10,345 nt of DNA from Chitinophagaceae bacterium (GTDB taxonomy: Bacteria; Bacteroidota; Bacteroidia; Chitinophagales; Chitinophagaceae), in NCBI GenBank assembly GCA_009996555.1, contig JAACZX010000474.1:1-10345 (forward strand), written 5' to 3'. Shown in pieces: positions 5,485 to 8,228 of the stretch; positions within the stretch are counted from its first letter, which is position 1; the number at the start of each line of letters is the position of its first letter. The notes beneath the pieces are model-generated. The model saw only the letters and a list, made by a program, of their open reading frames with translations, did not search any database and had not been told where the DNA came from. The translations under genes and the position numbers were made by a program.

Positions 5485-5558
5485 CCGACTTTCTGCCACA
5501 AAGGAGCTGAAATGGTCGTTGTGATCTTTGTGTCTTTGTGGGAAAACAAAAACAGAAC

Positions 5559-8228
5559 ATGAGTTTACCGAAACGATATTTAATTACGAGTGCGCTTCCT
5601 TATGCCAATGGTTTGAAACATGTGGGTCATTTGGCGGGTGCGTACATTCCGGCAGATATTTATGCCCGTTACCTGCGTGCGCAAAAGCGTGACGTGGTGT
5701 TTGTATGTGGCAGTGATGAACATGGAACCGCTATTCCCATACAGGCTACAAAAGAAGGCACAACGCCAAGAGCCATTATTGATAAGTACCATGAAGCGAT
5801 GAAGCAGGATTTTGAAGACCTGGGTATGAGCTTTGATATTTATCACCGCACAAGTGAACCCATTCATCATGAAACGGCACAGGAGTTTTTTACTTACCTG
5901 CACGAGCGTGGTGAACTGGAAACAAAAGAAACCGAGCAGTATTTTGATGAAGAGGCTAAAACATTTTTGGCCGATCGTTATATAAAAGGTACTTGTCCGA
6001 ACTGCGGCAGCGACCGTGCATTTGGTGATCAGTGTGAGAATTGCGGACGTACATTAAGTCCGGATGAGTTGATCAATCCCGTTAGTACACTCAGCGGTAA
6101 AGCGCCCATTAAAAAGAAAACATCGCATTGGTATTTGCCCTTGGGTAAGCACGAAGAATTTTTGCGTGAATGGATATTGAAAGAACACAAAGACGATTGG
6201 CGTGCAACAGTTGTTGGACAATGCAAAAGCTGGATCGAAGGTGGGTTGCAATCAAGGGCTGTAACACGTGATCTCGATTGGGGAATTAAAGTGCCAGCCT
6301 CCCTAAATCCCTCCAAAGGAGGGACTTCAGACTCCGATGAATCAGACAGTGCTTTTGATTATTTAACTGCTGATCCTGTTACTTATGGAAAGCTGAAAGA
6401 GTTTGTAAAAGAACATAGAAGTAATCCTACAGATGCTGAGATTGCCTTGTGGGAAATGTTGAGAGGAAAACAATTGGATGGATATAAATTCAGACGACAA
6501 CATATTATCGCCAATTACATCGCTGATTTTGTTTGCTTGTCAGCAAAACTTATTATTGAGGTTGATGGTTTAATTCATCAAATACCAGAAAATAAATTAA
6601 GTGATGCAGAACGTACGAAAGAATTAAATAAAAATGGATTTCAAGTAATACGTTTTAATAATATTGAAGTTATTAACGAACGTGAACGTGTAGCAAATGA
6701 AATTCTTGCTGCTGTATCAAAACGGAAAGCTGAATTAGCGGCGGCTAAAATCCCTCCTTTGGAGGGTGGGGAGGCTGGAAAGGTTCTCTATGTATGGTTT
6801 GATGCGCCGATCGGTTATGTAAGCGCAACCAAGCAATGGGCTATCAATAATAATAAAGAATGGGAACCGTATTGGTACGATCAGGATACGAAGCTGGTGC
6901 ATTTTATTGGTAAGGATAATATCGTTTTCCATTGCATCATCTTCCCGATCATGCTGAAGCTGCATGGAAATATTTTGCCGACCAATGTTCCTGCAAATGA
7001 ATTTCTGAATCTTGAAGGTGATAAAATGAGTACCAGCCGTAACTGGAAACTCGACATGCGTGATTACATCAACGATTTTGTGAAGAAAGAGAATGGTGGT
7101 GGACAGGCAGTTGATATGCTCCGTTATTACTTAACACAAATTGCTCCTGAAACAAAAGACAGTGAGTTTATGTGGAAAGGTTTCCAGGATGCTGTGAACA
7201 GCGAACTGGGAAACATCTTCGGCAATTTTGTAAACCGTACATGGGTGTTGATGCACAAACTCTGCGGCGGAAAAGTGCCGAAGCTGCATGAAGATGTATT
7301 CGTGGAAGAAGATAAATGGATCATCACAGAAATTGAAGCTGCAAAAGCAAAAGTTGAAAATTTATTAGAAGAGTATAAGTTCCGTGAAGCGTTGTTTGAA
7401 GTAATTGATCTCAGCCGCAAGGGGAATCAGTACATGCAGAAGAAGGAGCCTTGGATTGTTGCCAAACAATTAGCCTCCCCAAACCCCTCCGAAGGAGGGG
7501 CTTCAAAACCCGCAGGAGTAACAGAACTTTCAGGTTCTCAGAACCCTCCTTTGGAGGGCAGGGAGGCTGCACAAAAAAACATTGATAACACAATGCATTT
7601 GTGTTTGCAGTTGAGTGCAAATCTTGCTATCCTCATCAACCCCTTCTTACCAAACACAGCAAAGAAAATGCTGGGCATGATGAAAGTGGTGGAGAAAATG
7701 CTTGATTGGGAAAATGCAGGCAAGCTGAAATTGCTGAGTGTTGGTTATGCGTTGCGAGCACCTGAACTGCTTTTCAGAAAAATAGAAGACGATGAAATAA
7801 AATATCAAGTAGAAAAATTGAAAGCAGGGCTGAAGAAGGCTGAAGGTGAAGGGCAAAAGGCAGAAGCTGAAAACCCTCAACCCTCAACCGTAAGCCTTAA
7901 ACCTTCTATCCAGTTTGATGATTTCGCTAAGATCGATCTCAAAGTAGGGACCATTATTACTGCCGAAAAAGTAGAGAAAGCAGATAAGCTGTTGAAACTA
8001 TCGGTTGATCTTGGTTTTGAAACAAGAACTATTGTAAGTGGTATTGCACTTCATTTCAAACCGGAAGAGATTGTTGGCAAACAGGTAGTGGTAGTAGCCA
8101 ATCTTGCACCACGTAAAATGCGTGGTATTGAAAGCAACGGCATGATCCTAATGGCAGAAGATACAGAAGGCAAACTGCATTTTGTTGCACCTTCAACCGT
8201 GATCAACCCCGGCGCAGGCGTAAGCTAA
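5559..8228 (+). CDS. metG: Methionyl-tRNA synthetase with in-frame DUF559 nuclease insertion
   Basis: The enzyme charges tRNA-Met with methionine in the cytoplasm and is normally essential. The frame is intact at 889 residues, about 190 longer than expected for the class. Signature elements are HVGH (21-24), GSDEHGTA (51-58), the zinc knuckle Cys146/149/159/162, VLYVWFDAPIGY (409-420), KMSTS (489-493), the anticodon-binding helical region (~545-750) and a C-terminal EMAP-II-like tRNA-binding fold (~786-889). Two insertions interrupt it: residues 247-406, holding a DUF559 nuclease domain between the CP/zinc region and the second half of the Rossmann fold, and residues 639-670 in the anticodon domain. 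Both lie where family loops vary. ATG 5559 was chosen over a GTG at 5538 because SLPKRYLITSALPYANG is the usual start. All catalytic motifs are kept, so the protein is probably active, but a second metG elsewhere cannot be excluded. Confidence 0.95.
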   Translation: MSLPKRYLITSALPYANGLKHVGHLAGAYIPADIYARYLRAQKRDVVFVCGSDEHGTAIPIQATKEGTTPRAIIDKYHEAMKQDFEDLGMSFDIYHRTSEPIHHETAQEFFTYLHERGELETKETEQYFDEEAKTFLADRYIKGTCPNCGSDRAFGDQCENCGRTLSPDELINPVSTLSGKAPIKKKTSHWYLPLGKHEEFLREWILKEHKDDWRATVVGQCKSWIEGGLQSRAVTRDLDWGIKVPASLNPSKGGTSDSDESDSAFDYLTADPVTYGKLKEFVKEHRSNPTDAEIALWEMLRGKQLDGYKFRRQHIIANYIADFVCLSAKLIIEVDGLIHQIPENKLSDAERTKELNKNGFQVIRFNNIEVINERERVANEILAAVSKRKAELAAAKIPPLEGGEAGKVLYVWFDAPIGYVSATKQWAINNNKEWEPYWYDQDTKLVHFIGKDNIVFHCIIFPIMLKLHGNILPTNVPANEFLNLEGDKMSTSRNWKLDMRDYINDFVKKENGGGQAVDMLRYYLTQIAPETKDSEFMWKGFQDAVNSELGNIFGNFVNRTWVLMHKLCGGKVPKLHEDVFVEEDKWIITEIEAAKAKVENLLEEYKFREALFEVIDLSRKGNQYMQKKEPWIVAKQLASPNPSEGGASKPAGVTELSGSQNPPLEGREAAQKNIDNTMHLCLQLSANLAILINPFLPNTAKKMLGMMKVVEKMLDWENAGKLKLLSVGYALRAPELLFRKIEDDEIKYQVEKLKAGLKKAEGEGQKAEAENPQPSTVSLKPSIQFDDFAKIDLKVGTIITAEKVEKADKLLKLSVDLGFETRTIVSGIALHFKPEEIVGKQVVVVANLAPRKMRGIESNGMILMAEDTEGKLHFVAPSTVINPGAGVS
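6297..6323 (+). repeat. Left inverted end of the 480-nt element
   Basis: It consists of GCCTCCC, the spacer TAAAT, and the self-complementary core CCCTCCAAAGGAGGG (6309-6323). Its complement recurs at the right end (6752-6776), with a spacer of different length. It encodes A-S-L-N-P-S-K-G-G. The following ACTTCA matches GCTTCA at the same place in the 96-nt element. Confidence 0.85.
6366..6722 (+). other. DUF559 (Vsr-like, PD-(D/E)XK superfamily) nuclease domain within MetRS
   Basis: This is a protein domain within metG, residues ~270-388 of the synthetase. It shows the family pattern in order: T-D-A-E (291-294), LWEMLRGKQLDGYKFRRQH (298-315), YIADFVC (320-326), LIIEVDG (331-337) with His340, an Asp/Glu-Arg helix (349-352) and GFQVIRFNNIEV (360-371). 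By comparison with Vsr, Asp323 and Glu334/Asp336/His340 are the likely metal and catalytic residues, and none appears lost. No ATG, GTG or TTG lies in frame between the left border and Leu298, past the first conserved residues, so it is probably made only as part of MetRS. One 60-nt sample (6601-6660) has 16 G+C, against 24 in metG at 7021-7080. Activity is not shown. Confidence 0.85.
6752..6776 (-). repeat. Right inverted end of the 480-nt element
   Basis: CCCTCCTTTGGAGGG (6752-6766), then TG and GGGAGGCT (6769-6776). Read on the minus strand it repeats the left end: AGCCTCCC, a short spacer, then CCCTCCAAAGGAGGG. On the plus strand it encodes I-P-P-L-E-G-G-E-A. Confidence 0.85.
7473..7500 (+). 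repeat. Left inverted end of the 96-nt element
   Basis: GCCTCCCC-AAA followed by the core CCCCTCC-GAA-GGAGGGG (7484-7500), encoding A-S-P-N-P-S-E-G-G. It is nearly identical to the left end of the 480-nt element at 6297-6323. Confidence 0.85.
7544..7568 (-). repeat. Right inverted end of the 96-nt element
   Basis: The core CCCTCCTTTGGAGGG (7544-7558) is followed by CA and GGGAGGCT (7561-7568). It differs from the right end at 6752-6776 only in the dinucleotide between core and tail. It encodes P-P-L-E-G-R-E-A. Confidence 0.85.
7836..7905 (+). repeat. Degenerate heptanucleotide repeat tract coding the MetRS linker
   Basis: Ten 7-nt units lie in one continuous phase. The first five are AAGGCTG, AAGGTGA, AGGGCAA, AAGGCAG and AAGCTGA. 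The next five are AAACCCT, CAACCCT, CAACCGT, AAGCCTT and AAACCTT. The tract encodes residues 760-782 of MetRS, a charged and Pro/Ser-rich linker between the helical domain and the C-terminal tRNA-binding fold. It suggests the linker grew by simple-repeat expansion; the reading frame stays open. Confidence 0.65.

Follow-up and report, generated by a model that had tools for sequence, protein, structure and literature searches.

A Vsr-like nuclease element read in frame within methionyl-tRNA synthetase and other conserved proteins of Bacteroidota is probably of a homing type

The window, that is, the whole analysed stretch of 10,345 nucleotides from a Chitinophagaceae bacterium (contig JAACZX010000474.1), contains a methionyl-tRNA synthetase gene, metG, with an in-frame insertion that encodes a DUF559 nuclease (Table). 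It was concluded, with a probability of roughly 0.7, that the insertion belongs to a family of homing-type selfish elements, in which the coding sequence of a Vsr-like nuclease lies mostly between inverted GC-rich palindromes, and that many copies reside in conserved, often essential genes, where they form an additional domain of the host enzyme, with no sign of removal. According to the best reading, the element is not spliced and is tolerated in length-variable loops. The initial annotation had proposed such a homing-type element living in coding DNA without splicing. Comparative evidence supported this with respect to mobility, and cleavage and nuclease-driven homing are presumed. Homing endonucleases are thought to require a neutral home, which can be an intron, an intein or a gap between genes. 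The present nuclease, of a homing fold, instead forms part of the reading frame of aminoacyl-tRNA synthetases and further conserved enzymes, and does so in many genomes. This offers a natural test case of a selfish element that furnishes an essential protein with another folded domain.

Table. Features of metG and its two inserted elements (positions in the window)
Feature	Position	Strand	Basis
metG (methionyl-tRNA synthetase), host gene	5559..8228	+	ORF scan and Pfam; start by eye
Element 1, in-frame insertion of 160 codons in place of 5 loop codons	6297..6776	+	empty alleles in relatives
Element 1 left end: outer arm AGCCTCCCT, palindrome TCCCTCC-AAA-GGAGGGA and CTT	6296..6327	+	sequence; hairpin z -2.67
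Element 1 right end: palindrome and outer arm (GGGGAGGCT) repeated in inverse orientation	6748..6776	+	sequence; hairpin z -1.10, unremarkable taken alone
DUF559 domain (nuclease with a Vsr-like fold) retaining its conserved residues	6393..6716	+	Pfam, residue conservation, fold comparison
Element 2, short in-frame element of 32 codons, net +27 against relative L056	7473..7568	+	alleles of relatives, ends, hairpin

The metG gene occupied a single frame (5538-8228), open from GTG 5538, and its start was likely ATG 5559, chosen by eye. In the Pfam scan of the product, DUF559 (PF04480, E 4.8e-34) was flanked by two matched tRNA-synt_1g stretches. The ends of element 1 were read off the sequence against the empty alleles, which set its borders at 480 nt in place of 15 nt, a net gain of 155 codons. 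The host residues IKVP and GKVLYVW lay on either side of the element, with LQDAE between them in the empty relative L052. The 160 extra in-frame codons and their coordinates, as initially annotated, were thereby found to be exact to the codon. The same site was empty in 28 of the 29 related metG loci, and the remaining one could not be called, which agreed with the earlier view of a mobile rather than a universal MetRS domain. No in-frame ATG, GTG or TTG was present between GTG 6291, the host valine codon one codon ahead of element 1, and TTG 6447. Hence, the nuclease would be made within MetRS, unless translation begins at GTG 6291. The loop position was taken from a sequence alignment to 1rqg, since the structure model of the whole MetRS was poor (mean pLDDT 51.5, 19 rows). 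The suggested insertion into a loop held for the reading frame and, by this alignment, for the loop, but not for a pure addition, as loop codons were often replaced.

The GC-rich inverted ends around DUF559 in the intact metG frame were confirmed by the match of the arms and by shuffling. The arms 6309-6345 and 6730-6766 were 81% complementary across 37 nt, and the best-scoring inverted match enclosing the domain reached 62, whereas 30 shuffles gave 36 at most. The end motif CCCTCCNNNGGAGGG occurred 10 times in the genome, 4 of them within the studied metG, and its reversed control was absent (0 occurrences). The ends N-P-S-K-G-G and P-P-L-E-G-G, which had been expected to mark such elements, proved to be one end type, but several others occur. 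Of 59 copies counted in this genome together with the related ones, 28 were stand-alone genes, therefore residence in a host gene was not obligatory. Inspection of the empty sites by eye revealed no DNA motif that they share as a target.

The domain showed both the DUF559 profile match and a Vsr-like fold, and the fold matched that of the homing endonuclease I-Bth0305I (PDB 3r3p), so the link to this enzyme drawn at the outset holds at the fold level. Among 416 DUF559 relatives chosen by similarity, T298, E301, W305, R320, Q321, H322, D330, E341, D343, G344, H347, D356, R359, R372 and N375, among others, were 95-100% conserved, and all of them were present here. E301, D330, E341, D343 and H347 (99-100% among the 416 domains) are putative catalytic residues, in line with the earlier expectation of catalytic-type residues. 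The insert frame was open and under selection as a protein in the host frame; the dN/dS of the embedded nuclease was 0.04-0.28, indicating purifying selection. DUF559, whose name still denotes a family of unknown function, gains a candidate role in the homing-type reading.

Further, the same nuclease was found in frame within 20 unrelated host families, with host sequence mapped on both sides, and 13 of these families had at least two members. The occurrence of DUF559 inside other proteins, on which the idea of mobility had been made to depend, was thus established. The hosts included MetRS, LeuRS, IleRS, ValRS, MetH, AroC and CinA (identities of the examples confirmed by Pfam scans), and the insertions were often at recurrent exact sites. 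Identical sites recurred in distant genera, and nuclease lineages were tied to the site. At one metH site, occupancy switched at least 8-9 times on the host tree of 56 related genes, of which 12 were filled and 5 of these had been picked for being filled. Named strains with filled sites, e.g. Flavobacterium frigidimaris DSM 15937 for metH, allow testing. The nuclease was uncoupled from its host: a host identity of 91% was accompanied by a nuclease identity of 68%, and in another case 65% by 75%, with loose rank correlations of 0.12-0.68 per site. Similar nucleases were also found in unrelated hosts, e.g. MetRS and adenine deaminase (89%). As in homing elements, there was a fixed site with empty alleles in relatives and a spread independent of the host gene. 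A divergence gradient flanking the insertions, such as co-conversion of the flanks would leave, was absent in metG, metH and leuS; a dS gradient was present in one filled/empty comparison (ade), whose control pairs were saturated, and same-site dS over the named loci was mostly saturated. A viral source was rejected, as the 24 relatives in IMG/VR were at most 43% identical.

Element 2 had been overlooked in the initial annotation; its ends were of the same kind as those of element 1. In the MetRS of other species, a nuclease element occupied the element 2 site, and the short form matched both borders of the long form there. Element 2 is therefore probably what an internal deletion has left of a nuclease element, the direction from long to short being presumed. 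Scars of mobile DNA of this kind would account for some of the loops rich in proline and glycine that Bacteroidota proteins contain. Two weak Rfam matches to unrelated families were obtained over metG, one of them across element 2.

We proposed the following sequence of events, in which the choice of target and a role of the palindromes are likewise assumed. The nuclease, made within the host protein, would cut or nick the insert-less allele, and repair would copy the insert and some flank from the filled allele. More rarely, the element would reach a site not occupied before, and insertions there would survive only if they were in frame and fell in loops of variable length. A later deletion, also in frame, would remove the nuclease and reduce the element to a short palindromic scar, e.g. 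7473-7568. Ordinary recombination, without the nuclease, could also spread the inserts, which counts against this explanation. Also against it stand the dS gradient limited to ade, the lack of a common target motif by eye, the choice of 5 of the 12 filled metH rows for being filled, the stand-alone copies, the copies whose inverted ends did not exceed all shuffles or matched away from the termini, and genome G013, which had the end motif and no DUF559 match.

A passive palindromic element of the REP or MITE kind, inserting widely via its ends, with the nuclease as its transposase or resolvase and the in-frame copies as survivors in tolerant loops, was regarded as unlikely. It would fit the inverted palindromic ends that stand-alone and in-frame copies have in common; these ends scored above every one of the 30 shuffles in 17/28 copies with short and 22/31 with longer frames (39 of 59 together), some matches not being terminal. 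It would also fit the spread of the end motif: 9 of the 10 occurrences in the own genome did not adjoin a DUF559 domain, frames of at least 200 aa held 21 of 33 distinct copies read (several genomes, ends of full elements included), and DUF559 was enriched in genomes having the motif (8/9 vs 29/59 overall, hypergeometric p 0.011). However, the recurrence of identical sites and the site-tied nuclease lineages are better explained by target-specific copying, and the junctions that were read bore no target-site duplication visible by eye.

An old domain used by the host, as in a moonlighting enzyme or a DNA-repair accessory, and inherited vertically with losses, would agree with the purifying selection and with the same sites throughout the phylum. 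It was nevertheless judged highly improbable, given the nearly uniform absence from related metG loci, about 9 occupancy changes on one host tree, the loose coupling of identities and the similar nucleases in unrelated hosts. Least probable was an unrecognised self-removing element, i.e. an intein, an intron or a translational bypass. Inteins and introns likewise reside in conserved genes, and the palindromes flanking the insert are able to form hairpins, but the host frame continued open through the insert, which was under selection as protein in that frame. An intein was rejected, as Pfam scans of the metG product and the example hosts found no Hint splicing domain; a group I or II intron was rejected, as an Rfam search of 5538-8228 at E values of 1 or less returned no intron family.

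Among known systems, I-Bth0305I is similar in fold and is reportedly intron-associated, whereas the nuclease described here is a domain within a cellular enzyme, has palindromic ends, and no intron or intein was found. In REP/RAYT and REPIN systems, inverted pairs of GC-rich palindromes enclose a nuclease gene and short copies lie at other places, and in these respects they resemble the homing-type element. However, REP/RAYT have a Y1 HUH transposase, whereas the Pfam matches within the insert were limited to DUF559 and MTES_1575, with no Y1 HUH transposase, and many copies of the present element lie in frame inside genes.

Two precedents came nearest, namely the palindromic elements of Rickettsia and the insertion of phage ShiLan. 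The former, of ~150 bp with a conserved peptide, lie in frame in unrelated genes, as described in the accessible text of a review (PMC10969869). The elements studied here are likewise palindromic and in frame in unrelated genes, and element 2 resembles a Rickettsia element. A nuclease is unmentioned in that text, whereas the full element here encodes one and the short form resembles its remnant. The anticipated combination of Rickettsia-element and homing logic needs correction in that a short Rickettsia-like form lies in frame in the same metG and looks like a remnant. The ShiLan insertion in a phage methylase is, in the available part of its description, open in the host frame, patchy and endonuclease-encoding, with no splicing domain found (PMC11855218). 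Its HNH nuclease is out of frame in a non-essential phage gene, whereas here the DUF559 nuclease lies in the host frame of many bacterial housekeeping genes. No description of a combined in-frame palindromic and nuclease element was found in the searched library of open papers (subscription papers and most preprints lying outside), and none of the 14 papers naming DUF559 there pointed, by its title, to an inserted element. The earlier suggestion of novelty therefore stands within that library, qualified by ShiLan as a partial precedent. We lean slightly towards regarding protein-resident homing elements as an element class not previously described, present in ~20 Bacteroidota host families, in which a tolerated loop domain would replace splicing and proteins would become permanently longer through a cycle of invasion, same-site transfer, jump and decay to in-frame palindromic scars. 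In fungal mitochondrial rps3, a LAGLIDADG coding sequence is fused in frame, so that a homing endonuclease is likewise made as a host-protein fusion; according to the accessible text, this rps3 itself lies within a group I intron, and the nuclease family and the organellar setting differ (PMC7902536).

The metG gene of the window was found to contain, besides an in-frame insertion with a Vsr-like nuclease domain (element 1), a second and shorter one (element 2). The nuclease domain of element 1 was assigned by Pfam to DUF559 (PF04480, E 4.8e-34, residues 286-393 of the open frame). Both ends of this element were inverted copies of one palindrome with an outer arm, the left end being AGCCTCCCTAAATCCCTCCAAAGGAGGGACTT and the right end approximating the reverse complement of AGCCTCCCTAAATCCCTCCAAAGGAGGGACTT. 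As a single strand, the left hairpin was unusual when compared with shuffles (z -2.67), and the right one was not (z -1.10). No second metG was recorded for the genome of the window, 93% complete in 801 contigs, among the matches to whole MetRS in a protein search of this genome and 38 relatives.

Coordinates of metG and its two insertions in the window
Feature	Position	Description	Remark
metG	5538-8228	one open frame	
element 1	6297-6776	160 codons with DUF559 domain, flanked by IKVP and GKVLYVW	
element 2	7473-7568	in frame in metG, ends of the same kind as in element 1	absent from the initial annotation

Among the 38 relatives, 29 related metG loci were read, and the place of element 1 was empty in 28 of them, with 22 to 37 nt between the flanks; L071, at a contig end, was not classed. 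The 13 remaining genomes sampled from the genus were likewise all empty there. Since 15 nt (LQDAE) of the empty locus L052 were replaced, the net gain by element 1 was 155 codons. Nineteen loci were read at the position of element 2: the element was present in two genomes (G008 and G012) and absent from 15 loci, a third genome, G011, held a short palindromic insert of another kind, and L063 was left unclassed. It was also observed that in-frame simple repeats of the GTCAACAGTCAACAG/AAAAGTCAAAAGTT type filled the same loop in L049, the metG of a relative without the element, and likewise the loop of leuS site A in L172.

MetRS site B, where element 2 lies, was occupied by a full nuclease element in 18 database domains, and both borders of these full elements are kept by element 2. 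In the best case, protein P0049, the left border matched at 12 of 12 residues and the right at 20 of 23, the right-hand match extending into host sequence. At least nine residues of the left border matched in 14 of the 18 elements, and only about five in the other four. Element 2 was therefore probably a remnant of a nuclease element, so that the window most simply shows a full and a decayed element in one gene, the short form presumably derived from the long one. Two database proteins, P0001 and P0002, carried nucleases at both MetRS sites.

Of the four DUF559 copies in the genome of the window, one was stand-alone and the others lay in frame in metG, leuS and aroC; the domain was present in 29 of 59 genomes (this one and 58 sampled relatives). 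The best 62 of 78 listed matches were fetched, and those with 90 or more domain codons, 59 in all, were classed: 21 lay well inside a host frame, 28 were stand-alone and 10 were other (N- or C-terminal fusions, contig-end cuts and the like). The hosts confirmed by Pfam were LeuRS, AroC, adenine deaminase, MetH, acetyl-CoA synthetase, CinA, HsdS, HsdR, a methylmalonyl-CoA mutase fusion and an M23 peptidase. LeuRS was occupied at two sites, and one leuS (G026) had two copies.

Further, DUF559 was detected in 222 of 395 genomes sampled across the phylum; among the matches listed, at least 38 by manual count lay in frames of at least 500 aa, one being the window metG. Twenty of these loci were fetched, and the seven that were scanned comprised two LeuRS, two MetH, the mutase, HsdR and an Eco57I-type enzyme. 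When databases were searched with the inserted region, 639, 186 and 104 proteins matched, the listings covering 120, 120 and 104 of them; this set gives no estimate of frequency because it was drawn by likeness to in-frame copies. Mapping was applied to 419 domains from 401 proteins and distinguished 33 host-site labels, in bins set by the analyst, across 25 host families, counted by hand; 29 domains were unlabelled. The same host was found on both sides of DUF559 in 20 families, 13 with at least two members and seven with one, which partly served as its own reference. In Pfam scans of examples the domain lay inside IleRS (two copies), ValRS, a PheT-like protein, a glutamyl-type tRNA synthetase, RecG, RarA/MgsA, CinA, a DegT aminotransferase and a SpoIID-like protein, and preceded the helicase in RecQ.

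Among the best 80 of 572 relatives in named genomes, 74 were flanked by host sequence on one side or both, and 71 on both (MetH 44, MetRS 11, CinA 6, Ade 4, mutase 3, IleRS 2, Acs 1). The sites among these 80 were mostly 400 in MetH, mostly 255/256 in MetRS, 160/155 in CinA and 224 in Ade. Carriers included Flavobacterium frigidimaris DSM 15937, Winogradskyella sediminis, Marivirga aurantiaca and Salegentibacter holothuriorum. By record title, some in-frame copies came from outside Bacteroidota, namely in PheT-like proteins of Saccharibacteria (P0341, P0342) and MetH of an Ignavibacterium MAG (L312); a MetH copy titled Candidatus Nitrotoga MAG (L348) may be misbinned.

In a tree of 416 domains (389 labelled) built with FastTree, the host-site label changed 60 times, compared with 267 on average and a minimum of 258 among 200 label shuffles. 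This indicated that nuclease lineages were tied to sites, yet had jumped often, the clustering being partly raised by near-copies. A MetRS copy and an adenine deaminase copy were 89% identical. For one metH site, filled in 12 and empty in 44 of 56 related genes, 9 occupancy changes were needed, 8 of them forced by starred branches, versus 11.0 on average with shuffled occupancy, hence its occupancy was near unstructured; the tree was a quick one with some long branches, two of them meeting, and 5 of the 12 filled genes had been picked for carrying the element. The F. frigidimaris metH was placed among empty alleles. A genus sample of 61 genomes (57 matched) had 7 filled and 44 read as empty at the metH site.

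Host and nuclease identity were decoupled: pairs with 91/68, 85/51 and 65/75 per cent (host/nuclease) were recorded, and the rank correlation per site was 0.12-0.68. For aroC of G000 and G012, dS was 0.36 in the nuclease and 0.95 in the right flank. Filled (G012) and empty (G011) adenine deaminase genes differed by a dS of 0.41 near the site and 0.14 far from it (p 1.3e-5), in this one case a tract of the kind that co-conversion would leave. In comparison with two empty genes that were more distant, the sequence close to the site was the more conserved at the nucleotide level, the synonymous controls being saturated. No such gradient was found in metG, metH or leuS.

In 39 of 59 copies (17/28 with frames below 240 aa, 22/31 with longer ones), the inverted match that scored best around the domain, in some of them not terminal, did better than every one of 30 shuffles. 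The motif CTAAATCYCYCCN{2,5}GGRGRGACTT occurred 10 times in the genome of the window and was found in 8 of 58 relatives; its reversed control gave 0. DUF559 was present in 8 of the 9 motif-bearing genomes versus 29/59 overall (p 0.011), G013 being the one without a match, and 21 of 33 distinct motif copies read sat in frames of at least 200 aa. By eye, insertion replaced from none to about eight variable-linker codons at the junctions read. For metH, filled L306 and empty L378 had GAAGCAAGTAAAC in common to the left of the insertion and GGAAAAATATTGATG to the right of it, the insertion having replaced some 23 nt of linker. Window-type palindromes also formed an inverted pair about 520 nt apart in L006/L007 (G000:C77 3747-4294), with no DUF559 match between them.

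Of 12 pairs compared (11 from the same site and one formed by two copies in a single gene), 10 gave a finite dN/dS for the embedded nuclease, in the range 0.04-0.28, and the putative catalytic residues were 99-100% conserved in 416 domains. An ATG within 45 codons before the domain was present in 10/21 embedded copies of the genome of the window and its relatives, 56/73 at named loci and 26/28 stand-alone copies; the window had no start codon between GTG 6291 and TTG 6447. Judged from these start codons, internal starts would be possible for many embedded copies and hardly for the window metG nuclease.

In-frame insertion has been reviewed for Rickettsia palindromic elements (PMC10969869). ShiLan is a homing insertion through which the host frame stays open, whereas the HNH nuclease that it encodes is out of frame (PMC11855218), and an in-frame fusion of rps3 to a LAGLIDADG sequence has been mentioned (PMC7902536). 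A search of open PMC papers found no account of DUF559 elements residing in housekeeping genes. Comparison established that the insert codes in frame, that empty alleles are exact, that gain or loss at fixed sites recurs, that nuclease and host are decoupled, that the nuclease is under selection and that a short form has matching borders. We proposed that the nuclease would cut the empty allele and repair would then copy the insert, that loops adjoining conserved segments would be chosen by their tolerance and conserved flanks, and that the palindromes may aid rarer jumps to new sites.

DUF559 was also seen inside restriction-modification genes (HsdS, HsdR and Eco57I-type; L105, L110, L257, L264), with translated ends palindrome-like by eye, and a link of these elements to restriction systems is possible. 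In-frame N-terminal DUF559 fusions to a HisA-type protein and an amino acid kinase, ArgB-like by eye, were present at L092 (1479-2609), L121, L096 and L099, and similar ones to PF02542 (IspF) and PF00625 (Gmk) proteins in P0236-P0239, P0225 and P0233. Locus L104 (G008:C174) held a tandem pair of stand-alone DUF559 genes, identical in protein, with long inverted palindromes around each.
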